Of a stretch of DNA of 36,627 nt, positions 2,431 to 35,314 are shown piece after piece. The notes beneath the pieces were generated by a model. It worked only from the letters and a program-made list of their open reading frames with translations. It searched no databases and was not told the DNA's origin. A program made the position numbers and the translations under genes. Origin of the DNA: a virus; IMG/VR virus record IMGVR_UViG_3300046002_000666, positions 1 through 36,627 of that record. The stretch is one strand, 5' to 3'. Numbering within the stretch: position 1 is the stretch's first letter; every line of letters starts with the position of its first letter.

Positions 2431-2431
2431 T

Positions 2432-2887
2432 TTATTTTTCCTTTAAATATGTAGATTCTTTTAATTTGAATCCTCGACGCTCTAAACCCACTGGATCAGT
2501 AGTAGACATTCTAGTAGTAAAATAACCGTCAATCTCTTCTTTTTCAATTAAAAGTTCTGCTGTTTCGCAGTATTTTGCGAACAATCTGCCTCCTAATGAG
2601 GTCTTTCTATGTAGGGGCCCCACATACCACACTAATTCTCTAAGTTGAATGTTTTTAGGTGCCCAAAGATTTGGTTCCTTGATTGCAATCAAAATGCCCA
2701 CAGGTTCTTCTTCATGAAATGCCAACCAAACATAACCATTTTGAATAAAAGTAAAAGCCAACTTGCCCAAATGCTCAATGTCTTTGCTAGCCTCTGCTGC
2801 TTTGTCATAGCTGGTCTCATTGAGGAACTGACCCATCAAAGTTATGATGTGTCGTGCATCCATCAATGTGTGTGCCTGTTTGATCAT
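2432..2887 (-). CDS. GNAT-family N-acetyltransferase inside the tail operon (version A)
   Basis: 151 residues with a GNAT layout: a beta-strand with WLAFHEEEPVGILIAIKEP (about residues 53-71), then WYVGPLHRKTSLGGRLF (about 87-103), which fits motif A (R-x4-G-G) for acetyl-CoA pyrophosphate binding, then a C-terminal GFKLKESTYLKEK strand typical of the fold. The substrate is unknown. It overlaps the previous gene by four bases and is followed after one base by the J-like gene, so it is translated with tail genes. In lambda this slot holds the NlpC/P60-type gene K; here no peptidase is seen. The homologue at 30811-31260 keeps position and motif. Confidence 0.75.
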   Translation of the reverse strand: MIKQAHTLMDARHIITLMGQFLNETSYDKAAEASKDIEHLGKLAFTFIQNGYVWLAFHEEEPVGILIAIKEPNLWAPKNIQLRELVWYVGPLHRKTSLGGRLFAKYCETAELLIEKEEIDGYFTTRMSTTDPVGLERRGFKLKESTYLKEK

Positions 2888-3534
2888 GCTCCGCCGCCAT
2901 CAAAGACTGTAGAGTTGTCAGTTGAACTCGGTGCGCTAGGAGCACTGTATGGCTTGCCAAAGTCGAACTGACTGTCCGCTAATATTTTTACACGATACAT
3001 GCCAGTGTCTCCTGCAAACCATCGTTGTTGATCTGCATCATTAGTTCTGCGACCAGTGTACTTCTTCTCCATGATAGCATGAATACTTGAACACTGAATG
3101 CCCACAGTGTTGCTGACCAATTTGTTATCTTGATCCCAGTTTTCACTTAGACTGTAGTTGCTGATATAACCACTGAATCTCAAGTAGACCTGTGTGGCCA
3201 CATAGTTGCCTGTGCTGACATCAAAGAATGCACGATATACCTGCACTCTACTGCCTTTGATATTTGAATTCAATACCACTGACATGTAGTTGGGACTACC
3301 GTCGTCTGGCGGTATGCCACTTAGTTGTATGCCAAGTTGATTGTTGGTAATACGCAGGTCATCTTGTATTTCACTTATGCCCATAAAGTGTCCTAACTGT
3401 GTGTAGGTGTTGCCATTAAACACAATAGGAGCATAGGCATTGCTGATATAATAGGTGGTAGTGTTGACTTGAATATCAACCAACAGACAGTGTTTTATAT
3501 TTGTTGCGGTTAACGCTGCTATTACGGTTGTCAT
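2884..3534 (-). CDS. Minor tail protein, probable tail-tip/hub component (version A)
   Basis: 216 residues, beta-rich. It begins with a short hydrophobic helix and HCLLVDIQVNTTTYYISNA, then NTYTQLGHFMGISEIQDDLR and a central GIPPDDGSPNYMSVVLNS segment. I believe it belongs with the DUF2163/DUF1833-like phage tail proteins found between the tape measure and the tip protein, but this is from memory of family style. A Gly-rich tail ends DGGGA. The start overlaps the upstream stop at 3534 by one base. The copy at 31263-31907 is close through the core and diverges in the last ~20 residues. Confidence 0.65.
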   Translation of the reverse strand: MTTVIAALTATNIKHCLLVDIQVNTTTYYISNAYAPIVFNGNTYTQLGHFMGISEIQDDLRITNNQLGIQLSGIPPDDGSPNYMSVVLNSNIKGSRVQVYRAFFDVSTGNYVATQVYLRFSGYISNYSLSENWDQDNKLVSNTVGIQCSSIHAIMEKKYTGRRTNDADQQRWFAGDTGMYRVKILADSQFDFGKPYSAPSAPSSTDNSTVFDGGGA

Positions 3535-4181
3535 TAAATTACCTTTTCAATCAGTTCAAAGTCACCTGTGTATTGAACTTGACGCATAGGAATCAATTGA
3601 TAAGTTGGCAATCCTGCCACTACCACTCTCCATGTGCAACTATTTCCCACTGCTAGTCCTTGACCAACTAGACTGATCCCTTCGCTAGTAATTATAGGTC
3701 TATGTAAAGTCACTGAAGTAGTTGTGGTTAGTCCTCTTGTCACAGTATTAGCCACTGTGTAGGGATAACGACTATTTGCTGGTTGAATAATATCACCTTG
3801 TGCAAATATCACAGTGCTGGAACTAACGCTGGGCATATCTGTAATTGTTATAGTGCTGGTGCCCACTGCTTGAATAGTTAAACTGTTCAACTGGCCTTGA
3901 GTGATAGCACCCATGTAGGCTGTGATGTAATTCATACCTGAATTATTGTTTAGACTAATCTCATATTCACCAACACGGTCATTGAAGTCAATTACCTGTA
4001 TGAATGCACGACTGGCAGTCCAAGGCAAGCTACCTGGTGGGGTAATCTTGAAGCGCCAAGGTTGCGCTGTGCTGCGTTCTGCTGTTTTGATACGCTGGCT
4101 ACGGCTGATGGTCTGACCAACTATCCTACGTTTGTCGATCTCAATCTGCTGTGCCTTATCTATAATATTTTGTATTGACAT
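3534..4181 (-). CDS. Minor tail protein, distal-tail position (version A)
   Basis: 215 residues. The N-terminal ~35 residues are charged and helical (MSIQNIIDKAQQIEIDKRR), followed by an all-beta body with KITPPGSLPWTASR near 45, a Thr/Ser-rich middle and QVQYTGDFELIEKVI at the end. Directly downstream of the tape measure, with a one-base overlap at 4181, it occupies the place of distal tail proteins (lambda M/L region). I do not recognise a named family. The homologue at 31907-32554 has the same length and is very similar, most strongly in the first 60 and last 40 residues. Confidence 0.6.
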   Translation of the reverse strand: MSIQNIIDKAQQIEIDKRRIVGQTISRSQRIKTAERSTAQPWRFKITPPGSLPWTASRAFIQVIDFNDRVGEYEISLNNNSGMNYITAYMGAITQGQLNSLTIQAVGTSTITITDMPSVSSSTVIFAQGDIIQPANSRYPYTVANTVTRGLTTTTSVTLHRPIITSEGISLVGQGLAVGNSCTWRVVVAGLPTYQLIPMRQVQYTGDFELIEKVI

Positions 4182-6415
4182 TATCTAGTCCTTGTTGGCT
4201 GACTGCGTCTGCCCTGTTCTGTCACAGCGTAGATGAAGCTTGGATCTTTGGCCACTAGGCTGCGGAAACTGCTGGCATCAACTGCCTGTATGTTATAGTT
4301 GACTACAGTTTGGCCGCCACCTTGAGATGATCCGCCAGCACTGCCATTTAAAACATTATTGGCAACAATTTTACCTGCACTCTGCGGAATGAATAATTCG
4401 GGGCCACGTTCACCAACAACAATTGGTGTTTTGCCCATAACATCACCACCGTTGGCAAATCCAAACAAACTGGTTCCAATGGCAACAATGGCACGCTTGG
4501 CAGCAATACGAGCCAAGTCAGCGATGATACTTTGTGCTAGGTCTTTAAAACTTAGCTTACCAGTCATAACAAATTTAACCAAAGCATCTTCCATTCCATT
4601 GGTAAAGTTTTCAAAACTGTTCTTGATCTGTTCTGAACTGTCCAATGCTTTGTTCTTGTATTCTTCCCAAGAATCCATTAATGGATTAAGATTATTAATT
4701 GCTTCAATTTGTGCATTGGCAATATCTTTATATCCTTGTGCAATTTGTCCTAATCCATCAGCAAGTTCTTGAGCACGTTCTGGAGTCAGTCCATCTTCAC
4801 TGTCGAATGATGCTGAAAAACTGCGACCTGCTTCGAGTGCTGCCTTGCGAGCTGTTTCTTGAATCTTAGCAATTTCTTGTTGCAGTGGTGCTAGGCCTTT
4901 TAGGCTAGCTTCAAAGTTTAAATCAATTCTCTGATCGTTAATACCACGCAGAATATCGCCTAACTGTGATTGTCGATCAATTTGCTTTTCAATCTCATCT
5001 GTAATACGTTTAACAGCCTCTTGCTGTTGTTGATATTCGAAAGTTTGTCGTCTAGTGATTTCAAAGATATCTTGTTCGCTGGTTTTTAATCCTTCGAGTT
5101 CATCAATAGATTCTTGAATTAATTTTAGTGTTTGCCCTTTGGCTGTGGCTTTCTTAGCTTCTAGAGCAGCAATCTGATCACCATATTTCTTTTCAATTTC
5201 TGCTGTGCCTTTGATCAATTCTTGTTCGTATTCAGTCTTGCCCAACAGTTCAACCTGTGTGGTATAACGATCCATGTTGGCTTGAGTTGCACGGCGATAT
5301 CCACCAGTCATATCTTTAATAGTCTGCATCTCACGTTCTAACTGTTCAGCTAGACGTTCTTGTTCTTTGCGGCGTTGTTCTGCTTCACGCTTTAGTCTTT
5401 CTGGATCTGCCTTGCCAAAGCCACCTGGTGCGGCTTGTTCTGTTCTTCCTCTTGGAGCACCAGCAGCCGGAGCCATTAACCGTGCCATTTGTTCTTCAAA
5501 TTGTCGTCGTTGTAAGGCGGCCTGTTCTTCGGCAGTTAATGCTCTACTGCCACCTCCCATGCTGCCTGGAGCATTATTCAATGTAACACTAGGTCCGCCC
5601 GCAGCAAATGCTCTAGTAGTTCTACCTTGTTGATTTAATTCTTTTTCTTTTTGTTCTAATTTATTATAATAGGCATCAATTTTCCCCATTGCTGCTTCTG
5701 CTTGTTGAGCAACACCGCCAAAGAAACTTAATAAACTTCTTTCTAACTTATCACGCACACGATCAATAGCTTCTGAATATTCATCTAACTTTTTAATCTC
5801 AGCATCTTTAACTGGATCAGCAATGGCCTGCAATTTACCTAGGTCAAGTTTGGTAATGTTCTTGCCTAGAATATCCACTGCGGCAGCATATCTCTCACCA
5901 CTTAGATTACCTTCTTGAAATCGTTGAGTAATGTCTCGAAGTATTGCTTCAGTGCTGCGAATATTTCCGCCAGCATCAGTGACAAATACTCCCAGTGCTC
6001 TAAAACTCTGTTGCAGTTTTTCATTACCACCAGCAGCATCTTGAACGTTTTGATTTAGCTTGGCAGCAATCTGACCAAAGTCTTCAGCTTTGCCACCGGC
6101 TTCAATTACGCTGGTTCTAAAGTTTAACAGTGTGCCTTCAGCAATGCCAGTTGCACCTGCAATGTCACTAATGCCAGCAGCAAGATTAACTGCCTGCAGG
6201 CCCAAGGCAGCAAACGCTCCACCCACTGCTCCAGCAGCCAAGCCAATAGGACCAAGACGTCCTAGTATGCCACTCAGTGCGTTGTTTAAAGGACCAGTGT
6301 TGGCACCAAATTGACTGACTTCGTTGCTTAAATTTTTAATGCCTGAACTGGCTTTATCAACAGCACCTTGCCCTTCTACCTTAAATCTTAATAAGAAATT
6401 CTCTATGGTTGCCAT
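4181..6415 (-). CDS. Tail tape measure protein (version A, 744 residues)
   Basis: The longest gene of the tail module. The N-terminus (residues 1-120) is Gly/Ala-rich and hydrophobic around 45-85. Residues ~205-480 are highly charged with long coiled-coil segments rich in Lys, Glu and Gln. The C-terminal ~230 residues carry the lambda H-like ending: FENFTNGMEDALVKFV, FGFANGGDVMGKTP and GERGPELFIPQSAGKI. By family it sets tail length; at roughly 0.15 nm per residue the tail would be near 110 nm (inference). The C-terminus is nearly identical to the second copy (32554-35016), whereas the N-terminal two thirds is largely unrelated. Confidence 0.9.
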   Translation of the reverse strand: MATIENFLLRFKVEGQGAVDKASSGIKNLSNEVSQFGANTGPLNNALSGILGRLGPIGLAAGAVGGAFAALGLQAVNLAAGISDIAGATGIAEGTLLNFRTSVIEAGGKAEDFGQIAAKLNQNVQDAAGGNEKLQQSFRALGVFVTDAGGNIRSTEAILRDITQRFQEGNLSGERYAAAVDILGKNITKLDLGKLQAIADPVKDAEIKKLDEYSEAIDRVRDKLERSLLSFFGGVAQQAEAAMGKIDAYYNKLEQKEKELNQQGRTTRAFAAGGPSVTLNNAPGSMGGGSRALTAEEQAALQRRQFEEQMARLMAPAAGAPRGRTEQAAPGGFGKADPERLKREAEQRRKEQERLAEQLEREMQTIKDMTGGYRRATQANMDRYTTQVELLGKTEYEQELIKGTAEIEKKYGDQIAALEAKKATAKGQTLKLIQESIDELEGLKTSEQDIFEITRRQTFEYQQQQEAVKRITDEIEKQIDRQSQLGDILRGINDQRIDLNFEASLKGLAPLQQEIAKIQETARKAALEAGRSFSASFDSEDGLTPERAQELADGLGQIAQGYKDIANAQIEAINNLNPLMDSWEEYKNKALDSSEQIKNSFENFTNGMEDALVKFVMTGKLSFKDLAQSIIADLARIAAKRAIVAIGTSLFGFANGGDVMGKTPIVVGERGPELFIPQSAGKIVANNVLNGSAGGSSQGGGQTVVNYNIQAVDASSFRSLVAKDPSFIYAVTEQGRRSQPTRTR

Positions 6416-6420
6416 AACCG

Positions 6421-6690
6421 TTATCCTTTACTTTGTTTCTTAACCCATTCCTGAACATATGCTTCAGTGGGCTTTGTCATACCGTCTCGAGCCTGGGGGC
6501 TATAACCTTCATCTAGTCTGCGGGCATAAGGATAAGTGGCTTCGATAGTATCCTTGTTAAGAAAGGTATTGCGTTTAGCGTTGCCTGACTTAAAAGGAGT
6601 AATCTTTCGAAAGTGATTAAACCCTTCCTTAGCCATGGCTTCAGCTGTGATCTCTTTTTTGATCTGCTGCAACCTTTGAAATATACTCAT
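6421..6690 (-). CDS. HK97 gp10-like small structural protein (version A)
   Basis: 89 residues. The ATG at 6690 overlaps the stop of the frameshifted chaperone (ATGA), so translation is probably coupled. ITPFKSGNAKRNTF followed by TYPYARRLDEGYSPQARDGM resembles the HK97 gp10 / minor capsid family, whose members keep a basic SGNAR-type turn and a YA-x-LD-x-GYS-x-QA motif; these act at the tail completion point or neck. The position between chaperone and tape measure is unusual for that family. The copy at 35018-35314 (98 residues) shares the C-terminal motif and differs before it. Confidence 0.6.
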   Translation of the reverse strand: MSIFQRLQQIKKEITAEAMAKEGFNHFRKITPFKSGNAKRNTFLNKDTIEATYPYARRLDEGYSPQARDGMTKPTEAYVQEWVKKQSKG

Positions 6691-18420: not shown

Positions 18421-18582
18421 AATCTATTTCTTTCTTTGTTATTGTATTGTAAGAGCTTACTAAGTTCTAATCACTACATAAACAAAATACTCATTTCATT
18501 TCGTATTTTATTTTTATAGTAATTACTTCTTTTTTTTATTTTAATTGAAGTAAAATATAAAGTAAAGTTAATTGATGAAATA
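18421..18582. other. AT-rich spacer between the structured RNA and the small-gene operon
   Basis: About 160 bases of very AT-rich sequence with runs of T and A (for example near 18528-18540). I see no credible protein gene and no promoter with both boxes at a good distance. It may hold the promoter for the operon starting at 18420, or act as an easily melted segment. Confidence 0.4.
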
Positions 18583-19070
18583 CGACAACTCCAGGAAGAG
18601 AGAGCACGCCCTGTTTAGGGGACATGCTACAAACTTCCTGGAGTTAACTCCGTTGTCGATCACAAGATAGGTATTTTACTGACTTTGGACACTTGTTGTG
18701 GGCTCGTGCCTAACCCAACCTATCACGATTTTTAAGATTACTTCTCAGGCGTTATTTGTAATCATCACAAGGATTGTTACAGTGACTATGTCTCTGTATT
18801 CCAAAGATTTCCAACCATTCCGACAGTAGAAATGTTACCTGCATCCAATTGGTTCCAGGGCATTTAAGGCATCCTTGCGTCACAAGGGTAGTCTACTGAA
18901 CTCCGTTTATAGCGAACGGATTTGGCTACCGTCACACATCAGAACGGATTCACCAGCGGTATTACAAACGGCCCGCCAACCTTGTGCTATATGATTTGCT
19001 TTAATGGTGTCCATGATGAAGATATACACTGGCTGCTGAACAAGATTGAACTTGTTTTTATTGCGGCAAT
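18570..19070 (-). ncRNA. Large structured RNA with a group I intron-like core
   Basis: On the minus strand the helices of a group I core occur in order: P3 CACAAGG (18986-18980) with CCTTGTG (18887-18881); P4 TTGGC (18979-18975) with GCCAA (18926-18922); P5 CCGT/ACGG (18971-18968, 18932-18929); P6 TCCGTT/AACGGA (18920-18915, 18907-18902); J6/7 GTTC; P7 AGT-A-GACTA (18897-18889) with TAGTC-ACT (18788-18781), including the single bulged A expected at the guanosine site. GTTCAGTAGACTA and GAGACATAGTC resemble the classic R and S elements. The 3' part adds GATTAC/GTAATC, GATAGGT/ACCTATC and a long hairpin. J3/4 and J4/5 are not textbook and exons are not identified; another large phage RNA class is possible. 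Confidence 0.55.
18583..18658 (-). other. Long terminal hairpin of the structured RNA
   Basis: Twelve perfect pairs (AACTCCAGGAAG at 18587-18598 with CTTCCTGGAGTT at 18634-18645) enclose a second nine-pair stem (18603-18611 with 18620-18628) and are extended by CGAC/GTCG (18583-18586, 18655-18658) across a bulge that itself contains the palindrome GGAGTTAACTCC. The partial duplication of GGAGTT allows two alternative pairings. No U-tract follows, so it looks like part of the RNA fold or a 3'-end stabiliser rather than a plain terminator. Confidence 0.75.
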
Positions 19071-24022: not shown

Positions 24023-24538
24023 TTAAGCTCCTAATGTAATCGCAGTATATAGTGGACTTGTGCTTACTGTAGGATCACCAGGTGTAACACCCGGTTCCCA
24101 ACATTGAATAAATGCCCAACGATGCGTGTTAACTTGAACTGGACTTGTGTTGTTAGTCCATGTTACACCTACAATGGTGATAGGCACATTAGCACGAGCA
24201 TCAGGTAATATAGGGCCAGTATACAATCCACTAGGAATAGTAATATTAACTAATCCAGTAGTTGCATTAGTTGTAACAATATAACTGCTGGTTGAAATTA
24301 CTGCTGAAGGAAAATAACCAATGACATTACTATTAGCAAAGTTAGGGCTACCTGTGTTGCGATCAAATGCCACAGTATCGACTACAATAGTTTGGTGGTC
24401 TACGTGAAAGTTCCAACCAACAATACTAGTTGAAAAATTATAGTTAAGTGTTCGTTGTGTAGAGGGGAAGATCTGTTCGATCTGAATGTTATCAGCACCA
24501 CCAAGATACTGAGCAAAGTTTAAGACGCCTGCAGCCAT
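24023..24538 (-). CDS. Stand-alone paralogue of the giant fibre N-terminal domain
   Basis: 171 residues. It aligns with the first ~165 residues of the 1420-residue fibre: MAAGVLNFAQYL against MANGVLDYQRYL, IFPSTQRTLNYNFS against TFPSNQQTYNFS, VIGYFPSA against VIGYYEGS, YTGPILPDARANVPITIV against YAGPILPGGDYHVPLTVV, and FIQCWEPGV against FIQNWEPGV. An AAGGAAGGA site precedes ATG. It probably uses the same docking surface on the tail tip and could compete with or complement the giant fibre. Confidence 0.8.
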   Translation of the reverse strand: MAAGVLNFAQYLGGADNIQIEQIFPSTQRTLNYNFSTSIVGWNFHVDHQTIVVDTVAFDRNTGSPNFANSNVIGYFPSAVISTSSYIVTTNATTGLVNITIPSGLYTGPILPDARANVPITIVGVTWTNNTSPVQVNTHRWAFIQCWEPGVTPGDPTVSTSPLYTAITLGA

Positions 24539-24641: not shown

Positions 24642-27600
24642 TTAGTAGTATGGTGTCAAATCATTACTGGCGATAATCCAATCCAATGTTAAGTTTTCTT
24701 TATAACCTAACAAACAGTTTGCTGGGATTGTTGCCACTAGATTGTTGTCATCATCATAAGCTTCAATGCTGACTCTAATATCTAACCTATCCCAAGTAAA
24801 TGTAGGCGGTCTAGTGTAGAAACGATTTGCCCCAGCTAATGGATTTTGGCTATCGTACCATACAACCTTGTTGTTAAATTGCAATGTAACAATATTAGGT
24901 GAATCCTGAACACTTGATTGTTCAATCTTATATCTGCCCGAACCGCTTTGTTTAGCAGGAACACCATCAATAGGACCTGCTACCGGCACGTTAGCATTAA
25001 TAGGATTTAACATAGCTTCTTTATAAGCAACTCCTGGATAATTTGCTCCACTAGATACAGTTATATAAAGGCTACTAAAATCACCATAAATTGGATAGAA
25101 TACTCCATTCTTGTAATAGCTGTCTCGACCCTTGACAAAGTAAGGTGCAACAATTTCTAGTGTGCCAGTTAATATTATGGCGCCATAATCAGGGTAGGTA
25201 AAGTATGAACTATAAAAACGTTTAACTACTTGTGTTGCAATACCTTGTTTAGGCCATACTTCTGTTGTGTTAGTAAATGTTGAGCATGGATATGCATTAA
25301 AGTTAGTAACTGTAAAATTAGAATTGATTGAAGTGTATGTAAATCCACTAAAATTAAATGCTTCTAATCTTAAATCGCTGAATGAGAAATCATCACGTCC
25401 CACTACCTTGGTCTTAACAAATACAGGAACACCACTTGTTGCATTGGTTGCTACAGTGGCAGTGGTTAAATTATTAGCATAGATAGATGCAGTACCAACA
25501 CCATTAACAATGTTGGTGCTGGTAATCACAGCCCCGGTTGCCACATTAATAAATTGCATTGTTCCACTATTAACAGGAATAACGGAATCGATAGTTGCAG
25601 TCAACTTGACTGGGTTTGTAGGATATACTTTAGTGGCGGAATATTCTAGATACTGCGTAGAAGTATTAGGACTGATATAACTTCCGATACTTACATTGTA
25701 TGCTTCTGCCGGATTGACAATATACATTGGTTGAGAGTAAATGTCAAAAGGATTGTATCTACCATAAATTATTGGCAAACTTAATGTGCCGGTCCAAGTG
25801 ACATGAACTCCGGTTTCGTCAGGTAGTGTGTCAGCAGGTAATTCTAATATACTAAACTGAATATCAGTAGGCGTATATGTATAACTTGTGCTGGTCGAAG
25901 TGATAGGATCGAAGCTTACCCAAGTAGGGTTAGGAGCAAATCTTCTAGCACTACCAGACCAATAATGAGGATTATTATTCTGATATACAGCCGCACCAGT
26001 TGAGAATGTCATATACCATTCATTATAGAAATCTGCAAGATCATCCGCAGCAGCATTTCCTGGATTTGTAGATTGCCAAACTTTTACTCCATAATTAGAC
26101 CATCTGATACCTGCATCTTCCCATTCTTGAAATGATCCAGCAAATCGAGTTCCCGCACCTCTAAATTTAGAATATTTTAAAACATTGGTATTGGTGGACC
26201 ATCCAATGGCTTCACCGGTTAGTTGATATTGAGGGAATGTTCCACCATTTAAAGTTGTAGAATATTCTGCGATTCTAAGACCATTTGTTTCAAAAGTTGT
26301 GCCAGTGTTTATTTTATTTGTAAGGATTGGATCGGGCAATGCAGCTTCTAATGTTCCGGTATTGCCAAAGTTAGTTCTAAATTCCCTTCTAGTTTGTGGA
26401 ATGGTTGGAGTAAATCTAAACAACTTGACCTTGATCTTTGTTCTAGGTTGTGTTCCATTTTCCTGTGCTTGATTAATATAAGGAACTGTCCACTCAACTT
26501 CACCGATATATTCAACTAATTCAATATATCTAAGTTTTGCAGGAAAATAACTAATTCCAGTAACATAAGACTTGTATTTGTTAACTCTAAAATATAATCT
26601 GCGAGGATTCTCTTCAGACACATTAGTTGGACCTGTATATGTCGCCGCATCGAGGCCTACTACATTATAACCTCTAGTATCACCTACTAGGTCTGTTTTA
26701 TAAACATCGTATATGTTGACCTTAACTTGATCTGTTGCTTTATAATAAGCACCGTTAAAATCTAAGATTGAACTATAAATTGAAGCATAATCAAATAGCT
26801 CATTGCCATTTACGCTGAGTGTTCCTTTATAATCAGTATTCCATGTTGTTCCAAATGTAATAGGATCTGCAATTTCACTATAATTTGTTCCGGTAACAGC
26901 TGATAAATTATAATTGCTTCCGTCATAATACTTAAACAATCTATGAGAGTTGATCTTAACGGCTGTGGTATTGCTGTATGGTATCGAAGTTCTTCCTGAC
27001 TGATATCCAGCGCCACCGCCATACCAAGAATCCCAATATGGTCCGGATTCTGAGCTCCAACCATTAGCAGGCTCTATCAACATCTGTGGGGTGCCATAAA
27101 CACCATCCCAGTTTCTTTCAAAACCGCCACTTAATGTTGCCATAGTGGCAGTTAATCCTGCCCAAAGAACAGTGGTTGTAGTGGTTGCAGTGACAATGTT
27201 ATATCTTTCCCACTGGCCTGTTCCTAGAATATCATTGTCATACTTAAATGTCAACGTGTTGGTTAATGTGGTGCTGGTGTTAGCAGTAATTTTAATTGTA
27301 TCACCACTAACAGTGCTGGTTGTTGTTACGATAGGAGTAGGCAATAAATCATTACCTAATCTTACCCTATGTGAAAGTGAGTTGCTAGTGCTAGGTAAGT
27401 TAGCATTAACTAAACTTATACCCAAGTCACCTGGATAACTGGCAGTAATAGTCCAAGTACCAGTTGTGCTTATGATTATATTACTGACTGTGAAAATACC
27501 GGCTCCACTATTGTTTCCACTGTATAATGTAGTGCTAGTGCTGCCATTATTAGCTATTAGGCTAATGTTAGTGTAGTAGGTGGCAGTATTAGTGTTCACT

Positions 27601-28904
27601 GTTATACTAAAAGATTCATCAAAATAAGTTGATGTGCTACTCTGTGTTATTGTTAGTGGAAAAGATTGTCCTGTAACAGTCACACTAGTGCTTGTGGCTA
27701 CATTTATAGTAGTTGATGTTGAGCCTGCACGATATCTACCCAGTGTCTGATAACCCCAACTACTTGTTACGGTTTCTGTATTAGATACAAATAAAGTAGC
27801 AGTGTATTGTGTGCTGTTCTGTGTGCTAGTTGTTATACTATATTGTGTTTGTGGGTAAGTTCTACTAACATCTATCATTGAACTTTGCACAGTGAAATTA
27901 GTTGTTGTCTGCCCGTTTTGGAAATTAGCCGATAGAATGTTTGTTTCAGTAAAAGGTGTAAATGCATTTACTAATTTAATATCAATAGGATTAGCGATGG
28001 CAACACCAGTGGCAGTAAAGGCCGGATCTGCGATAACACCTAATCTATAATTTACAGTATGTCCAGGATAATAATATGCTTGACTTGGTGTAAAGGTTGA
28101 TGTGGTGACAATTAAAGGAACGCCTGCTTCGACACGAACATTCAAGGTGTTAGAAGTTGCTGAACGATAGATACCTCTAGGCTGACTTACTGCATAGATA
28201 TTATAATTGCCAATAGGCAAATTAGGATTTGTAGGAACAACCAATGTGGCCACTGTGCCTGTAAAATAAGCCGTGCCTAATACTATGTTTGTTCCAGTGC
28301 TTTCACGATAAAATCTAACTCTAGTTGCATTGACGCCTAGGTCAATTGTCATGTCTGTAGTGGCTGTCAGTGTTAGGTTATCACCATAGACAATACCAGT
28401 ATCACCAGTTAGCGTTAGTGTGCTGGGTATAGAATAGACAGGAAAATAATTAAAATCAAGAGTAGGATCTGCAATCTCAACACCAGGCTCCCAATTCTGA
28501 ATGAATCCAATTTGCTGTGCGTATGTGGTGGTTCCATCAAACCATTGTAAGTGAACTACTGTTAGAGGAACATGATAATCACCACCTGGTAGAATAGGTC
28601 CAGCATACATATTGGCGGGCAAACTGATAACACCAGTGCTATATTGTGTGCTGGTGCTTCCTTCATAATAACCTATAACTTGACTGCTATCAACATTAGG
28701 AATATATCCAGTTGCCTGACTTGAGTAACTTACAGTATCTAATATCAATGTTTCCCAACTGATGGTGCAAGTCCAAGAGGCAGTTGTGCCACCAGCTACA
28801 CTAAAATTATAAGTCTGTTGGTTGCTGGGAAAAGTCTGACCTAAATCATTCAGAGTTTGTAATGTGTTTAGGTATCGTTGGTAATCTAATACGCCGTTTG
28901 CCAT
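24642..28904 (-). CDS. Giant tail fibre with Ig-like repeats (1420 residues)
   Basis: The largest gene. Residues 1-165 are the adaptor-like domain shared with the 171-residue protein. From ~170 onward come bacterial Ig-like (Big_3/Big_5-type) repeats: TLTLTGDTGIVYGDNLTLTA, then NYNIYAVSQPRGIYRSATSN, VTVTGQSFPLTITQSSTSTY and others, with many Thr-Ser-Thr linkers. The C-terminal ~700 residues have aromatic-rich beta sequence (GGAGYQSGRTSIPYSNTTAV; EWYMTFSTGAAVYQNNNPHY), likely the receptor-binding part. No signal peptide is seen. It lies directly downstream of the J-like gene, and the tandem hairpins follow. Confidence 0.82.
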   Translation of the reverse strand: MANGVLDYQRYLNTLQTLNDLGQTFPSNQQTYNFSVAGGTTASWTCTISWETLILDTVSYSSQATGYIPNVDSSQVIGYYEGSTSTQYSTGVISLPANMYAGPILPGGDYHVPLTVVHLQWFDGTTTYAQQIGFIQNWEPGVEIADPTLDFNYFPVYSIPSTLTLTGDTGIVYGDNLTLTATTDMTIDLGVNATRVRFYRESTGTNIVLGTAYFTGTVATLVVPTNPNLPIGNYNIYAVSQPRGIYRSATSNTLNVRVEAGVPLIVTTSTFTPSQAYYYPGHTVNYRLGVIADPAFTATGVAIANPIDIKLVNAFTPFTETNILSANFQNGQTTTNFTVQSSMIDVSRTYPQTQYSITTSTQNSTQYTATLFVSNTETVTSSWGYQTLGRYRAGSTSTTINVATSTSVTVTGQSFPLTITQSSTSTYFDESFSITVNTNTATYYTNISLIANNGSTSTTLYSGNNSGAGIFTVSNIIISTTGTWTITASYPGDLGISLVNANLPSTSNSLSHRVRLGNDLLPTPIVTTTSTVSGDTIKITANTSTTLTNTLTFKYDNDILGTGQWERYNIVTATTTTTVLWAGLTATMATLSGGFERNWDGVYGTPQMLIEPANGWSSESGPYWDSWYGGGAGYQSGRTSIPYSNTTAVKINSHRLFKYYDGSNYNLSAVTGTNYSEIADPITFGTTWNTDYKGTLSVNGNELFDYASIYSSILDFNGAYYKATDQVKVNIYDVYKTDLVGDTRGYNVVGLDAATYTGPTNVSEENPRRLYFRVNKYKSYVTGISYFPAKLRYIELVEYIGEVEWTVPYINQAQENGTQPRTKIKVKLFRFTPTIPQTRREFRTNFGNTGTLEAALPDPILTNKINTGTTFETNGLRIAEYSTTLNGGTFPQYQLTGEAIGWSTNTNVLKYSKFRGAGTRFAGSFQEWEDAGIRWSNYGVKVWQSTNPGNAAADDLADFYNEWYMTFSTGAAVYQNNNPHYWSGSARRFAPNPTWVSFDPITSTSTSYTYTPTDIQFSILELPADTLPDETGVHVTWTGTLSLPIIYGRYNPFDIYSQPMYIVNPAEAYNVSIGSYISPNTSTQYLEYSATKVYPTNPVKLTATIDSVIPVNSGTMQFINVATGAVITSTNIVNGVGTASIYANNLTTATVATNATSGVPVFVKTKVVGRDDFSFSDLRLEAFNFSGFTYTSINSNFTVTNFNAYPCSTFTNTTEVWPKQGIATQVVKRFYSSYFTYPDYGAIILTGTLEIVAPYFVKGRDSYYKNGVFYPIYGDFSSLYITVSSGANYPGVAYKEAMLNPINANVPVAGPIDGVPAKQSGSGRYKIEQSSVQDSPNIVTLQFNNKVVWYDSQNPLAGANRFYTRPPTFTWDRLDIRVSIEAYDDDNNLVATIPANCLLGYKENLTLDWIIASNDLTPYY
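28383..28508. repeat. 126-base exact repeat of the window start
   Basis: Bases 28383-28508 equal bases 1-126, and the first mismatch is at 127/28509. It lies inside the giant fibre gene. An exact match at the end of a contig is the signature of an assembly graph branch, or of a circular sequence closing. Confidence 0.95.
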
Positions 28905-28913
28905 GAGTTTTCC

Positions 28914-30806
28914 TTAAATGCCACCGTAATCATTTGGGTTCCAATAGAAGCCCGGTGAGCTTGAACTTGAAAGTTCACTATATCTAGATCCTAATCCTGT
29001 CCTTGCTTTAAAGTAGAATGTTCCAGCAATAGGTAATGTTACCACATCAGTAACAGTTACGCCACCTACGTAAGTTCCGCCTGCTGGATACTCATTAGCA
29101 AAATAACTGAATGATCCAGTGCTGGTTGTATTATACCACCATTGAATTTCGTCAACTCCTGTTGACGCAGCATCAATAGTTGTTTCTAATCTAAAGCTAG
29201 GTGTAGTTGTAGAGATAGTGGCCACTGTAGGAGCACTTGGTGCTGGCAAACTAGCTGATCCACCAAATGTAGGAATACCTGAACCTGGAGTATCTGCTGA
29301 ATCTTCTAATGTCTCATCTGTGTAAACTGTGGATTTGTATTCTAGTGCAGTTATTTCAACAGTGATACCACCTGATTCATCTTCCACTTCACGCATCTTA
29401 CTGATACGGAATAATTTTTCTTCGAATCCATAAACATCATTGGTAACTTTAACAACATCACCTGCTTCACATTGTAATGCAGAATAGTCAGCGCGGAATG
29501 TAATAATCAAATCAGCACGACTGCCTTTAAGCTCAATTAATCCAATGCGAGCTGAGTGCAATGCGTTGTTAACCATGTCTAATCTCATACTTAATGTATT
29601 AGATGGTTCTAAGTCATTCATCTCACTAGAGTCAATTGCACCACGGAAGTAGTCATTCTGATCTCGTATCTTACGACTGGCAAATTCAACTTCTAATACA
29701 TTATATAAATCTTCCAAGTTAGTGGCAGTGATGCCAACATCACCAATAATATTATCATCATTAAATTCAAATGCATTATTCAATTCCGTTGCTGTGGCAG
29801 CACGATTGAGAATAACTTTCCATTTACCTTGATTGTAATCAAAAGTAGTCCATGCATTAGATCCCATGCTGATTTTGTCTAGGTTATTTTTAACAGTTTC
29901 ACCTGCAGAAATAACACCATTGATTTGGTAACGAACCTGAGTCGATGCTGTTGTGCCGCCAGTTAAGAATTGATTGCTAGGAATAGTATTACTCCAGCCC
30001 AATAGACTTGTAGTAGTAGATGCAATGCAAGTACTGGTATCAACTTGTGTAACAGGGATACCCGCACCATAACGTTGACTGGTGATATAATCATACCAAA
30101 CTGAACCTGGATTTGCCAAAGAATTGCTGACCTGGAATGTAATTTGTCCCAGACCAGTAATGCCTTTTTCGCTGTTATAATCAATTTGCACAACTGCATA
30201 GACAGTTCCGTAAAGTTGATAGTTAGTATCACTTTCACCAATGACTGTTCTTGCATTAGAAGTATTACCTGTAGATTGTGCAGGAAAGATCTGCTGAGTA
30301 GAATTAGTACCACTACTATAAACACGAATACGAATTAATCCATCAAAGTTTGTATTACTTTCACCTAGACCGTTCTGATCAATAGAGGATGCAACAATGT
30401 GTTCACTGCCTGCTCCTCTGAATACTAATTTCTGATCGTTCCAATAAATGTCTCCAATGGTAAACGTGCCTGTTTGTGTTTGCTCACTTAAGGCCAACAC
30501 ATAGGTCATTGTTTTGTTTTCATTGCTAATACGTGCATCAATTACTGTGCCTTTGGTGTTAACTGTTCCATATACAATAGGAACTTTGTTATTGGTAGCT
30601 GGTGGCAATTGAATACGCACGCCTGGATCTTGTGCTGTTCCGCCTCCACCTCCGGTCAATCCCAATAGGCGTGCTGTAGTGATAGCCAATCCTAATGCAA
30701 TGGCTGATGTGACAAATGCAACGCCAGCTGATCCTACTGCGGCCGCAAACATAATTCCAAATGCCTCGGCTACAATTATACTGGCAACATAGGTAAATGC
30801 TGGCAT
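28914..30806 (-). CDS. Tail tip attachment / host-specificity protein, J-like (version B)
   Basis: 630 residues, homologous to 532-2430 over the full length with shared blocks at VPIVYGTVNTKGTVIDARIS, ITGLGQITFQVSN and the end FYWNPNDYGGI. Differences cluster in the N-terminal hydrophobic stretch (AEAFGIMFAAAVGSAGVAF), around residues 245-275 and in the 540-600 region near the C-terminus. By family it closes the tail and contacts the receptor. The giant fibre follows after nine bases, as in version A. Confidence 0.8.
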   Translation of the reverse strand: MPAFTYVASIIVAEAFGIMFAAAVGSAGVAFVTSAIALGLAITTARLLGLTGGGGGTAQDPGVRIQLPPATNNKVPIVYGTVNTKGTVIDARISNENKTMTYVLALSEQTQTGTFTIGDIYWNDQKLVFRGAGSEHIVASSIDQNGLGESNTNFDGLIRIRVYSSGTNSTQQIFPAQSTGNTSNARTVIGESDTNYQLYGTVYAVVQIDYNSEKGITGLGQITFQVSNSLANPGSVWYDYITSQRYGAGIPVTQVDTSTCIASTTTSLLGWSNTIPSNQFLTGGTTASTQVRYQINGVISAGETVKNNLDKISMGSNAWTTFDYNQGKWKVILNRAATATELNNAFEFNDDNIIGDVGITATNLEDLYNVLEVEFASRKIRDQNDYFRGAIDSSEMNDLEPSNTLSMRLDMVNNALHSARIGLIELKGSRADLIITFRADYSALQCEAGDVVKVTNDVYGFEEKLFRISKMREVEDESGGITVEITALEYKSTVYTDETLEDSADTPGSGIPTFGGSASLPAPSAPTVATISTTTPSFRLETTIDAASTGVDEIQWWYNTTSTGSFSYFANEYPAGGTYVGGVTVTDVVTLPIAGTFYFKARTGLGSRYSELSSSSSPGFYWNPNDYGGI

Positions 30807-30810
30807 GTCT

Positions 30811-31260
30811 TTATTCCTTTAGATACGTTTGTTCTGTTAATCTGAAACCTCTTGACTCATAGTCAATGGTGTCTGTTGTGGTCATTCTAGTGGTGAAATA
30901 GCCTTGAATCATTCCTGATTTCAGCAACTCTTCACCCTTTTTGCAGTAATTTAGGAACAATTTTCCACCGATACTATTCTTCCTATACTCTGGTGCAATA
31001 AACCACACAATCTCTTTTAATTCTTTAGCTCGAGGATACCACATGTTTGGTTCCTTGATAGCCATTAATAATCCAACTGGTTCGCTGCCAACATAGGCAA
31101 GCCACACATAACCATGTTGAAATGTCATCCAAGTTAATTTGCATAGATGTTCTAAGTCATCAGCGGCCGCTTTGGATTGTTCATAACTGGTCTCAAGTAA
31201 GAATTGTTTAAGCAATCCTACCACAGTCATTGTGTCTGCTTGTGTAGCTTGTCGAATCAT
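30811..31260 (-). CDS. GNAT-family N-acetyltransferase inside the tail operon (version B)
   Basis: 149 residues. FIAPEYRKNSIGGKLF matches GNAT motif A more closely than version A (V/I-x-P-E-Y-R-K-x-x-I-G-G). YVWLAYVGSEPVGLLMAIKE and the terminal GFRLTEQTYLKE are conserved with 2432-2887. Position is the same: after the 214-residue protein, before the J-like gene. Conservation of motif and place in both versions argues for a real function. The substrate is unknown. Confidence 0.78.
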   Translation of the reverse strand: MIRQATQADTMTVVGLLKQFLLETSYEQSKAAADDLEHLCKLTWMTFQHGYVWLAYVGSEPVGLLMAIKEPNMWYPRAKELKEIVWFIAPEYRKNSIGGKLFLNYCKKGEELLKSGMIQGYFTTRMTTTDTIDYESRGFRLTEQTYLKE

Positions 31261-31262
31261 TG

Positions 31263-31907
31263 TTAAGCTCCACCACCATCATAAGTTGGAGTATCTGCTG
31301 CGGCAGTGGCTGGAGCAGAGTATGGCTTACCAAAGTCGAACTGACTGTCTGCCAATGACTTAACTTTATACATACCTGTATCGCCTGAGAACCAATACTG
31401 TTGATCACCATCATTAGTTCTTCGCCCACTGTATTTCTTTTCCATGATAGCATGAATAGAGCTGCATTGAATACCAATGGCATTGCTAACCAATTTGTTT
31501 TCTTGATCCCAGTTTTCATTTAATGAATAGTTAGAAACATATCCACTGTATCGCAAATATACCTGAGTAGGATCGTAGTATCCGCTTGAAATATCAAAGA
31601 ATGCACGATAGATTTTAATAGCACTGCCTTTTAAATTGCTGTTTAGTACTATGCTCATATAGTTAGGACTGCCATCATCAGGTGGAATGCCACTAAGTGT
31701 AATCGAAATCTGATTGTTGGTAATTCTTAGATCATCCTGAATTTCACTCATGGACATAAAGTGACCTAACTGAGTGTAGGCATTACCATTATAGGTAATA
31801 GGTGCATAAGCATTGCTTAATCGATATGTAGTTGTATTAACTGTGATATCAATCAGCAAACAATGCTTGATGTTGGTCGCCGTTACTGCGGGAATTACAT
31901 TGGCCAT
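31263..31907 (-). CDS. Minor tail protein, probable tail-tip/hub component (version B)
   Basis: 214 residues. Conserved with 2884-3534 through HCLLIDITVNTTTYRLSNA, YTQLGHFMSMSEIQDDLR and GIPPDDGSPNYMSIVLNS, diverging near the C-terminus (ATAAADTPTYDGGGA). One-base overlap with the upstream stop at 31907; the GNAT gene follows after two bases, whereas in version A those genes overlap. Confidence 0.65.
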   Translation of the reverse strand: MANVIPAVTATNIKHCLLIDITVNTTTYRLSNAYAPITYNGNAYTQLGHFMSMSEIQDDLRITNNQISITLSGIPPDDGSPNYMSIVLNSNLKGSAIKIYRAFFDISSGYYDPTQVYLRYSGYVSNYSLNENWDQENKLVSNAIGIQCSSIHAIMEKKYSGRRTNDGDQQYWFSGDTGMYKVKSLADSQFDFGKPYSAPATAAADTPTYDGGGA

Positions 31908-32554
31908 TATATAATCTTCTCAATTAATTCAAAGTCACCTGTGTATTGAACTTGTTGCATAGGCACAAGTTGGTATGTGGGCAGTCCACTGATCAATACA
32001 CGCCAGGTGCAACTATTTCCTACTTTCAATCCTTGACTTGTTAGAGTAATTCCTTCACTAGTAATTATAGGTCTATTCAAAGTTACTGAAGTAGTTGTAG
32101 TTGCTCCTCTGACCACTGTATTAACTACAGTATAAGGATAGCGACTATTATTTGGTTGTATTAAATCACCCTTGGCAAATATTACTGTGCTACTGCTAAC
32201 GCTGGGCATACCTGTAATTGTTATTGTGCTGGTGCCCACTGCTTGAATAGTTAGACTATTCAATTGTCCCTGAGTAATACTGCCTAGATAACTGGTGATA
32301 TAATTCATTCCTGAATTGTTGTTTAGACTGATCTCATATTCGGTTGAACGATCGTTAAAGTCAATAACTTCAATGAATCCTCTGCTGGCAGTCCATGGCA
32401 AGCTACCAGGAGGAGTAATCTTAAACTTCCAAGGCTGTGCAGTGCTTCGTTCAGCAGTTTTAATTCGCTGGCTTCGACTGATACTCTGACTAATGATCTT
32501 ACGACGATCTATTTCAATCTGCTGTGCCTTATCTATAATATTTTGTATTGACAT
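31907..32554 (-). CDS. Minor tail protein, distal-tail position (version B)
   Basis: 215 residues, the same length as 3534-4181 and very similar. KITPPGSLPWTASRGFIEVI and QVQYTGDFELIEKII are conserved. It starts on the last base of the tape measure stop. Many differences from version A are silent third-position changes, which supports the frame. No named family recognised. Confidence 0.62.
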   Translation of the reverse strand: MSIQNIIDKAQQIEIDRRKIISQSISRSQRIKTAERSTAQPWKFKITPPGSLPWTASRGFIEVIDFNDRSTEYEISLNNNSGMNYITSYLGSITQGQLNSLTIQAVGTSTITITGMPSVSSSTVIFAKGDLIQPNNSRYPYTVVNTVVRGATTTTSVTLNRPIITSEGITLTSQGLKVGNSCTWRVLISGLPTYQLVPMQQVQYTGDFELIEKII

Positions 32555-35016
32555 TATCTGCTCCTTGTTGGCTGACTACGACGGCCTTGTTCTGTTACTG
32601 CATAGATGAAGCTTGGATCACGTGCAACTAGGCTACGGAAACTACTTGCATCAACTGCCTGTATATTGTAATTAACAACTGTCTGTCCGCCACCCTGAGA
32701 TGATCCAGCACCACCGGCGCTGCCATTTAGAACACTGTTGGGAACAATCTTACCTGCTGATTGTGGAATAAACAATTCAGGACCACGTTCACCAACCATA
32801 ATTGGTGTCTTGCCCATAACTGGTCCACCATTGGCAAATCCAAACAAACTTGTTCCAATGGCAACAATAGCACGCTTGGCAGCAATACGAGCCAAGTCTG
32901 CAATGATACTTTGTGCTAGATCTTTAAAACTTAACTTACCAGTCATAACAAACTTGACCAATGCATCTTCCATGCCATTAGTAAAGTTTTCAAAACTGTT
33001 CTTAATCTGTGCTGAACTGTCTAATGCTTTGTTCTTGTATTCTTCCCAAGCATCCATTAAAGGATTAATATTATTGATTGATTCAATTTGTGCCGCAGCA
33101 ATATCCTTATAGCCTTGTGCAATCTGACCTAATCCATCAGCAAGTTCTTTAGAACGCTCGGGCGTTAATCCATCTTCGCTGTCAAATGCTGCTGAGAAAC
33201 TACGTCCTGCTTCTAACGCTGCCTTACGTGCAGATTCTTGAATGTTGGCAATTTCTTTTTGTAATGGTGTTAGACCTTTTAAACTCTTTTCAAAATTTAG
33301 ATCAACCTTCTTATCATTAATACCTCTCATTATTTCGCCAAGTTGTTGTTGACGAGCAATTTGGTCCTCAATAGATTTTTTCATGTTCTCCATGTCTTGG
33401 AGACGAGCTGCATCTAACTTACGTGCTGTCTGAAGTTTAGTAATATTATAATCTAAACTATCATTATGTGTTTTATAATATTCTTCAACTTTCTTACGTA
33501 ATGTTTCATTAGCACCTATTTGCGCTTCGATGCCTGCTTTATCTTCATCTTTGGCAAACTTTAATTGAAAGCGTAATTTTTCTTGTTGTTGTCCAATATC
33601 TTTTAGTTTAGCAAGACGTTGAACGTTAGCATCATCTTGTGCTTTAATGATTTCAACTTGATCTTCACTAATTACATTCTTCAACTTAGATAATTCAATT
33701 AATCTTGCTTCTAGTGCGATAGATTCAGTCTGACGACTTAATCCAATAGCTAGATTATCAATTTGTTGTCTTAATTCAAGTGAGACTTTGCCGCGGGCTT
33801 CTGCTTGACGGTCAAGTACTTCACGAAGTGCTTGTTCTTTCTTGGCAGCTTCTTCAGCATCTTTCTTGCGCTGATCCATTTCTGCTTGTCCATTGCCTCT
33901 ACCAGCACCACCTCCATTATCACCTTTTATTAAACCAATATACTGTGCAAATATTTTAATCTTTTCAATAGCAGGATCTAACCATCCAAAGATATATTCA
34001 AATGCGGCTCCTGCGGCAAATGCCATAGTTTTCCACATTGGAGTAATAAGTTGTATTAAAGGTGCTAAAGTTTCACCAATTATTGCCGCAACTTGTTTTA
34101 TAACAATCCAGATTCCTCTAAATGTGCTACTTGCTTGTCCTACATTGGTGATCAAAGCACCAAATCCATTGTAGATATTTTTAACAAGATTTACAAAGCC
34201 ACCAGCAGTTGAAATAAGTTCAGCAAAGATAAGAATTAGTACTCTTATTACTTGGATTACTTTAGTGATGACTAATAATGACCCAATAATAACTAAACCT
34301 GCCTTGATAGCATCAAAGAATTTAACAAATCCATCAACACCCACATTGACACTGGCAATAAGTTCAGTAAGTGGCTTGATTGCTTCTAATAAACCAATCT
34401 TAAATTCATTTAGTGTCTTATCAATGTTTTGTTGTGCTGCTGCACCTTTGGCAATAGCATCGGAATATTGTTGACTTTTAGCTGTGGCTTCTGCATAGGC
34501 AGCACCTAATTGACCTGTGGCAACATTGCGGAATTCTTTGCCTAACAACTGTGTAACTAGAACACTGCGCTTGGCACTGTTCTCCATTTTATCTAATCCT
34601 GAAATAGTCTTAGATAAAATATCTTGATTACTCATGTTACGTAGGTCTTCAATGGTAACACCTACATCACGGAATGCTTGTTGCAAACTAGCTGATCCGT
34701 CTGCCGCTTCACCGATACTATTGACTAAACGAAGAATAGCTTTCTGTGCACCATCTGCAGATCCACCACTGGCCATAACTGCATTCTGAAACCCAACAAT
34801 ATTACCAATGGCAATCTCACTGGCATCACTAAGATCACTAATGGCATCAGCAAACTGTAATGCTTGACTGATAACAGCACCTAGGCTAATTGTAGCCAAT
34901 GTGCTTTTAAGTCTTATAAATGTATCATTAAGGCCGCCTACTGACTTTTGTAAATTACTAAGACTACGCTCAGCTTGACTTACATCTACCGTGGCTTTAT
35001 AGTTTAAATCCGCCAT
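32554..35016 (-). CDS. Tail tape measure protein (version B, 820 residues)
   Basis: 76 residues longer than version A. The N-terminal ~200 residues share only general character with it. Residues ~235-350 hold strongly hydrophobic segments (GLVIIGSLLVITKV, VLILIFAELISTAGGF, TMAFAAGAAFEYIFGW) absent from version A; such segments in tape measures can insert into the inner membrane during DNA entry. Charged coiled coil follows (390-560). The C-terminus (FENFTNGMEDALVKFV, FGFANGGPVMGKTP, GERGPELFIPQSAGKI) is nearly identical to version A. The expected tail is near 120 nm by the 0.15 nm per residue rule (inference). Confidence 0.9.
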   Translation of the reverse strand: MADLNYKATVDVSQAERSLSNLQKSVGGLNDTFIRLKSTLATISLGAVISQALQFADAISDLSDASEIAIGNIVGFQNAVMASGGSADGAQKAILRLVNSIGEAADGSASLQQAFRDVGVTIEDLRNMSNQDILSKTISGLDKMENSAKRSVLVTQLLGKEFRNVATGQLGAAYAEATAKSQQYSDAIAKGAAAQQNIDKTLNEFKIGLLEAIKPLTELIASVNVGVDGFVKFFDAIKAGLVIIGSLLVITKVIQVIRVLILIFAELISTAGGFVNLVKNIYNGFGALITNVGQASSTFRGIWIVIKQVAAIIGETLAPLIQLITPMWKTMAFAAGAAFEYIFGWLDPAIEKIKIFAQYIGLIKGDNGGGAGRGNGQAEMDQRKKDAEEAAKKEQALREVLDRQAEARGKVSLELRQQIDNLAIGLSRQTESIALEARLIELSKLKNVISEDQVEIIKAQDDANVQRLAKLKDIGQQQEKLRFQLKFAKDEDKAGIEAQIGANETLRKKVEEYYKTHNDSLDYNITKLQTARKLDAARLQDMENMKKSIEDQIARQQQLGEIMRGINDKKVDLNFEKSLKGLTPLQKEIANIQESARKAALEAGRSFSAAFDSEDGLTPERSKELADGLGQIAQGYKDIAAAQIESINNINPLMDAWEEYKNKALDSSAQIKNSFENFTNGMEDALVKFVMTGKLSFKDLAQSIIADLARIAAKRAIVAIGTSLFGFANGGPVMGKTPIMVGERGPELFIPQSAGKIVPNSVLNGSAGGAGSSQGGGQTVVNYNIQAVDASSFRSLVARDPSFIYAVTEQGRRSQPTRSR

Positions 35017-35017
35017 A

Positions 35018-35314
35018 TTATTTCTTTCCTAAAATTGCATCAAGACGTTTCTTGATATATGCTTCTGTGGGATTGCTCATACCATCTGGTGCTTGACGAC
35101 TGTATCCATCATCTAATCTTTGTGCATAAGGATACGCTCCGACAATTGTATCTTTACTTAGAAAAGTATGAGACCGTGCATAGCCAGTCTTAATTGGTGT
35201 ATGAGCCTTGAAGAATATGAAAGCATCCTTGGGAACAGAAGCCAATTGCTTCTGCTTAACCTTAGTTGATGGAGTAATCTTATCATCTATGGTGATTTTA
35301 AAATTTAAACTCAT
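35018..35314 (-). CDS. HK97 gp10-like small structural protein (version B)
   Basis: 98 residues. HTPIKTGYARSHTFLSKDTI and YPYAQRLDDGYSRQAPDGM match the gp10-like pattern better than version A (P-x-K-TG-x-AR, then YA-x-LD-x-GYS). The first ~35 residues are unrelated to version A. ATG overlaps the frameshifted chaperone stop (ATGA). The stop is directly followed by the tape measure start. Confidence 0.62.
   Translation of the reverse strand: MSLNFKITIDDKITPSTKVKQKQLASVPKDAFIFFKAHTPIKTGYARSHTFLSKDTIVGAYPYAQRLDDGYSRQAPDGMSNPTEAYIKKRLDAILGKK

Follow-up and report, generated by a model that had tools for sequence, protein, structure and literature searches.

Genomic context and predicted transcript

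The window, that is, the whole stretch of DNA analyzed here, is an IMG/VR record of 36.6 kb from a tailed phage and contains genes for the portal, the terminase, the head, and the tail. On its minus strand, flanked by an 86-aa ORF and an 82-aa ORF, lies a conserved, structured, noncoding RNA of about 590 bases. The region folds better than its shuffled versions (z −2.6). An earlier note on this DNA had stated that splicing would find no ORF to join; indeed, the ORF list of the window contains no minus-strand ORF of at least 60 aa across the RNA, and the indels among relatives are of many lengths, so that protein coding was rejected. Neither tRNA genes nor a GIY-YIG gene were found near the RNA in the window, and no SegE gene accompanies this copy.

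The predicted transcript (type A; 19070–18480, minus strand; ~590 nt) is probably free-standing, with limits read from the sequence: the start was placed from a promoter, TTTACA-N17-TATTAT (19105–19077), and the end from a conserved AU-rich hairpin. The promoter, already reported in the earlier note, is kept together with the downstream TTGCCGC in the relatives L010 and L011, and is retained in L009 although an ORF takes the place of the RNA there; as a bare consensus, this promoter was found three times against 3.7 expected, which is not above chance. Just upstream, as the same note had it, a terminator-like hairpin read from the sequence, AAAACCCAC..GTGGGTTTTC (19160–19128, minus strand), ends in GTGGGTTTTC; L009 and L010 have a hairpin plus TTTTTCTTT at the equivalent place.

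The AU-rich 11-bp hairpin AAATAAAATAC..GTATTTTGTTT (18513–18480, minus strand) is conserved in L010 and L011 and is probably the terminator of the RNA; a terminator scan of the window did not call it, which counts against the interpretation that we prefer below. The stretch 18513–18440, made up of this hairpin followed by GTTTATGTAGTGATTAGAACTTAGTAAG.TCTTACAATA, is more conserved than the RNA itself among the window, L010, and L011, and is possibly a further regulatory site.

Secondary structure and covariation

Eleven type A sequences were aligned (alignment A3), and a structure was drawn on the window sequence with RNAalifold as a guide. Of the cells for the 54 proposed pairs, 85% are paired and 97 are double-changed, compared with 33.6 double-changed in shuffles; the covariation score is 0.437 against 0.174 shuffled, a value reached in 0 of 500 shuffles. 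Drawing the structure in this way favors it somewhat, and the shuffles ignore the relatedness of the sequences. A slide control, which retains relatedness, brought the score down to about 0.1 when partners were moved by one column.

All helices are on the minus strand. Three hairpins come first: hairpin 1, GCGG..CCGC (18976–18956; conserved as GRCRG..CYGYU; 100% paired, two of four pairs changing on both sides); hairpin 2, UGGU..GCCA enclosing CCGUU..GACGG (18955–18923; 95.5% and 100% paired, five pairs changing on both sides); and hairpin 3, UCCGUU..AACGGA (18920–18902; five of six pairs changing on both sides). They are followed by the long-range helix 4, CAGUAGA (18898–18892) with UCUACUG (18830–18824), in which 100% of the cells are paired without a single mismatch across the 11 sequences and both sides change at all seven pairs. 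Inside helix 4 are a CUACCC..GGAUGCC hairpin and another stem; hairpin 5, CCUUG UGACG CAAGG, lies at 18887–18873 (98% paired, four of five pairs covarying). The 3′ domain contains GAUAGGU..ACCUAUC enclosing GGGU..GCCC (18724–18666; 79% and 97% paired, four pairs changing on both sides) and the long 3′ hairpin GACAAC..AACUCCAGGAAG / CUUCCUGGAGUUGUC (18657–18584), which was read from the sequence and had also been seen in the earlier note.

That note had interpreted the same region as a group I core with a P3/P7 pseudoknot. The strings that it quoted exist on the minus strand (CACAAGG, 18986–18980; CCUUGUG, 18887–18881; GACUA, 18893–18889; UAGUC, 18788–18784; UCCGUU/AACGGA, 18920–18902), but the 11 homologues show no covariation in P3 and P7 beyond shuffling, the very outcome that the note had named as speaking against its reading: on A3, P3 and P7 are 62.0% paired against 60.4% shuffled, and their covariation score was reached by 112 of 500 shuffles. 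When the stretch was dinucleotide-shuffled 200 times, a P3 (7 bp)/P7 (5 bp) pseudoknot in the same order and with similar spacing, G-U pairs allowed, arose every time. The claimed R element, CAGUAGA, pairs with UCUACUG as the 5′ strand of helix 4, and the claimed second strand of P3 is the 5′ arm of hairpin 5, which is local and covaries. The group I core was thus ruled out by the covariation in homologues and by the shuffles, and with it went two of the three explanations offered in the note, a free-standing ribozyme with this core and an intron in a noncoding transcript, because both rest on P3/P7. Of the third, a new phage RNA class sharing the core, the class stands, as a conserved, promoter-driven, structured, and noncoding RNA; the shared core does not.

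Relatives in other viruses and in bacteria

Homologous loci were located via the neighboring 130-aa ORF. At this locus, L010 and L011 carry a diverged RNA; L008 (3746–4468) and L009 (3965–4744) have ORFs of 240 and 259 aa, respectively, in its place, neither with a Pfam match. A pattern built from the conserved 5′ motif and run against IMG/VR matched 69 contigs, with 66 genuine relatives and three chance matches; seven further pattern matches in genome contigs were rejected as chance. The relatives are of two types, A, to which the window RNA belongs, and B. Both types occur at the one locus in related phages, type A in the window and L011, type B in L010. Types A and B, on at least 66 contigs, make up an undescribed group of large viral RNAs that are modular and belong to aquatic phages.

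A covariance model built from the 11 type A sequences (R1) finds type A members on which it was not trained (L030, E 6e-41; L024, 1e-38; L076, 3e-32) and type B members (E 2e-9 to 3e-5). Searches of Rfam gave no match for the window RNA at the gathering threshold, no match to group I introns or RF01718 at E ≤ 10, and none for 20 type A and B relatives. Comparison of the RNA queries with named phages and plasmids by blastn retrieved no family member; the weak matches obtained were short and mostly AT-rich. For the Melnitz phages, the nearest named SegE carriers, R1 had no match in L166.

Among bacterial genomes, taken from the family of a Rhodoferax genome, RF01718 was found in one of 401 and R1 in one of 201. 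The R1 match is a type A-like RNA in a genome island (L168, 1501–1676; wider region, L169), next to an integrase, type I restriction genes, and a CD-NTase-like ORF, gene names having been assigned by reading the sequences.

RNA types at the SegE locus

SegE, a gene for a GIY-YIG protein (PF19835) common in T4-like phages, precedes the RNA at many type B loci, and at many the RNA motif begins 7–110 nt after a stop codon, often that of SegE; by the pattern used, SegE lies upstream in 13 of 34 loci. Among the nearest 80 SegE relatives, seven carry an RNA of the CAAGGTTG type, and many others have another structured RNA at the same place. In T4-like phages (L086–L165), RNAs of type B, C, or D occupy this fixed position, about 10–100 bases after SegE. 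Thirteen of the 20 SegE-linked loci scanned match RF01718 at 70–120 bits (cutoff, 37 bits) and constitute type D. Type C has no Rfam match and shares with type D a GGUACCGG..ACCGCC element; a scan for this element returned at least 120 stretches, and among the matches listed, SegE is upstream at 53 of the 69 places with enough upstream sequence (pattern-based counts). A functional pair of SegE and the RNA is unsupported because SegE is a general gene of T4-like phages and the CAAGGTTG-type RNA accompanies it in only seven of 80 cases.

Which gene lies downstream of the RNA varies among loci, and at 13 of 31 it is antisense to the RNA; since the genes differ in this way, the RNA is not the leader of one particular gene, and this candidate was ruled out. 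Two contigs, of 349 kb and 217 kb (jumbo phage), each have two RNAs at separate places, one of RF01718 and one of type A. Many RNAs of types B and D have short repeated motifs that contain GGCA (AGGCA, TGGCA) in their 5′ leaders, just before the core.

A direct repeat in the 3′ domain

A hairpin flanked by ACUC-X and AUCU-X, where X is an exact direct repeat of 6–8 nt that differs between RNAs (at least 12 variants), occurs in the 3′ domain of 33 of 54 RNAs; L053, at about 3340–3410, is an example. The arrangement occurs in types B, C, and D and in type A of T4-like phages, where the window has its long 3′ hairpin; the window RNA has the inverted complement as its second copy, which forms that hairpin. 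The two copies of X agree at 198 of 198 positions, against 134.8 when second copies were shuffled among RNAs, an excess partly built in by the preselection of this set on a four-base match. Several more RNAs, missed by the script, show X by eye.

Comparison with known RNAs

Polynucleobacter-1 (RF01718) was assigned to Burkholderiales and fresh water and tabulated as possibly cis-regulatory (Weinberg et al. 2010, PMC2864571); in the open-licence papers searched, we did not find Polynucleobacter-1 or RF01718 named beyond that paper. Its helices come in the same order as those of the window RNA, three hairpins and then a long-range helix that surrounds two stems, the enclosed short hairpin being CUAUCC..GGACG in RF01718 and CUACCC..GGAUGCC in the window, and RNAs of both kinds have a further 3′ domain. 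In contrast, its sequence departs from that of the window in hairpins 1 and 2 and midway through the 3′ domain, and the window RNA reaches no score with RF01718 at E ≤ 10 (membership cutoff, 37 bits). The RF01718 model is 141 nt long; the RNAs found here extend about 300 nt further.

Two RNAs bridge the gap. L157 and L160, which score 80 and 70 bits with RF01718, are also matched by R1 (E 2e-7 and 7e-10, respectively), although neither was used in building it. A type D model built without them (R2) finds both (E 3e-13 and 4e-10) and no type A RNA. Its score does not place the window RNA within RF01718; judged from these searches it is probably a relative through intermediates, by descent or by module exchange, because R1 reaches L157 and L160 and R2 reaches the same two but not type A. 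The link could stem in part from exchange of one hairpin module such as hairpin 2, which is also present in L157 and L160.

GOLLD and ROOL are likewise large structured RNAs of phages or prophages, and GOLLD, too, combines a conserved region with a variable one (PMC12286853). They differ from the present group in that neither the window RNA nor the 20 relatives gave an Rfam match to either, and the window RNA is not near tRNA genes.

Interpretation

We consider it likely that the window RNA is a free-standing, noncoding tailed-phage RNA with its own promoter, belonging to a modular superfamily of large RNAs (about 400–600 nt) of which RF01718 is best read as describing one 141-nt piece. Such an RNA would be transcribed from its own promoter and fold into a 5′ domain of three hairpins and a long-range helix, in the order of RF01718, followed by a 3′ domain that no Rfam model covers. 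The swapping of types at one locus, the varied or antisense downstream genes, and the rarity in bacteria point to a phage RNA that would act in trans while the phage infects its host, and the interchanging types may do the same job. Against this stand the failure of the window RNA to match RF01718 at E ≤ 10 and of R2 to find type A, so that the link runs through intermediates, and the position of many type B motifs 7–110 nt after a stop codon, where an origin as a 3′ UTR is conceivable.

That position also favors action in cis, with the RNA as a structure in a 5′ leader or a 3′ UTR that would control or stabilize a neighboring mRNA, as does the listing of Polynucleobacter-1 among possibly cis-regulatory motifs; we regard such an element as unlikely, given downstream genes that vary and are antisense at 13 of 31 loci, the presence of SegE upstream at only 13 of 34 loci by the pattern used, and a window copy with its own promoter and no SegE. 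Slightly less probable again is a part in the arms race between phage and host, as a decoy, an antidefense RNA, or a defense RNA. This role would explain both the replacement of types at fixed loci and the presence of an RNA in a bacterial island with integrase, type I restriction, and CD-NTase-like genes; there is, however, a single such island, with no partner protein and no known defense target. We give little credence to the idea that the RNA is a mobile or selfish element that travels with GIY-YIG nucleases: it is widespread over unrelated phages, SegE adjoins many copies, and a GIY-YIG ORF follows the RNA in L010, but SegE is common in T4-like phages and seldom accompanied by a window-like motif, the window has no GIY-YIG gene nearby, and insertion is not shown by any target-site comparison. 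That the RNA is a group I intron or a group I-like ribozyme is very improbable, for although strings resembling the R (UUCAGUAGACUA) and S (AGACAUAGUC) elements are present, as in group I introns (RF00028), and strands P3 to P7 can pair, the same strands build other, fully covarying helices, Intron_gpI was not matched even at E ≤ 10, and there are no exons, the RNA-less relatives L008 and L009 having an unrelated ORF rather than a joined exon.

Within the preferred reading, a free-standing phage RNA of a modular superfamily, the analogy with GOLLD and ROOL lets us guess, at rather less than even chances, that the RNA may be a scaffold or a self-assembling particle. More speculatively, and with doubt prevailing, the window RNA and types B–D might be one functional class whose domains are exchanged as cassettes at fixed loci, the covarying 3′ direct repeats setting specificity (for host or defense target) and each phage carrying one or two RNAs of different specificity.

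Large structured phage RNAs such as GOLLD and ROOL are elaborate and unexplained, and an undescribed group is now added to them. This group is related here to RF01718, of which only an orphan motif of 141 nt had been known; in T4-like phages, RF01718 RNAs have a longer 3′ domain, and they are rare among the bacterial genomes sampled. The swapping of types at one locus, together with the covarying direct repeats, offers testable handles on function.

Other features of the window

A 171-aa ORF (24023–24538) is paralogous to the N-terminus of a 1420-aa ORF without PHROG match (24642–28904), with 36% identity over 165 aa. The tail module is present twice, at 532–6690 and 28914–35314, about 28 kb apart; both copies comprise a J-like protein, tail proteins, a tape measure protein, and a small ORF, with proteins 53–86% identical. 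Either the module is truly duplicated, or two related phages were assembled into one record.
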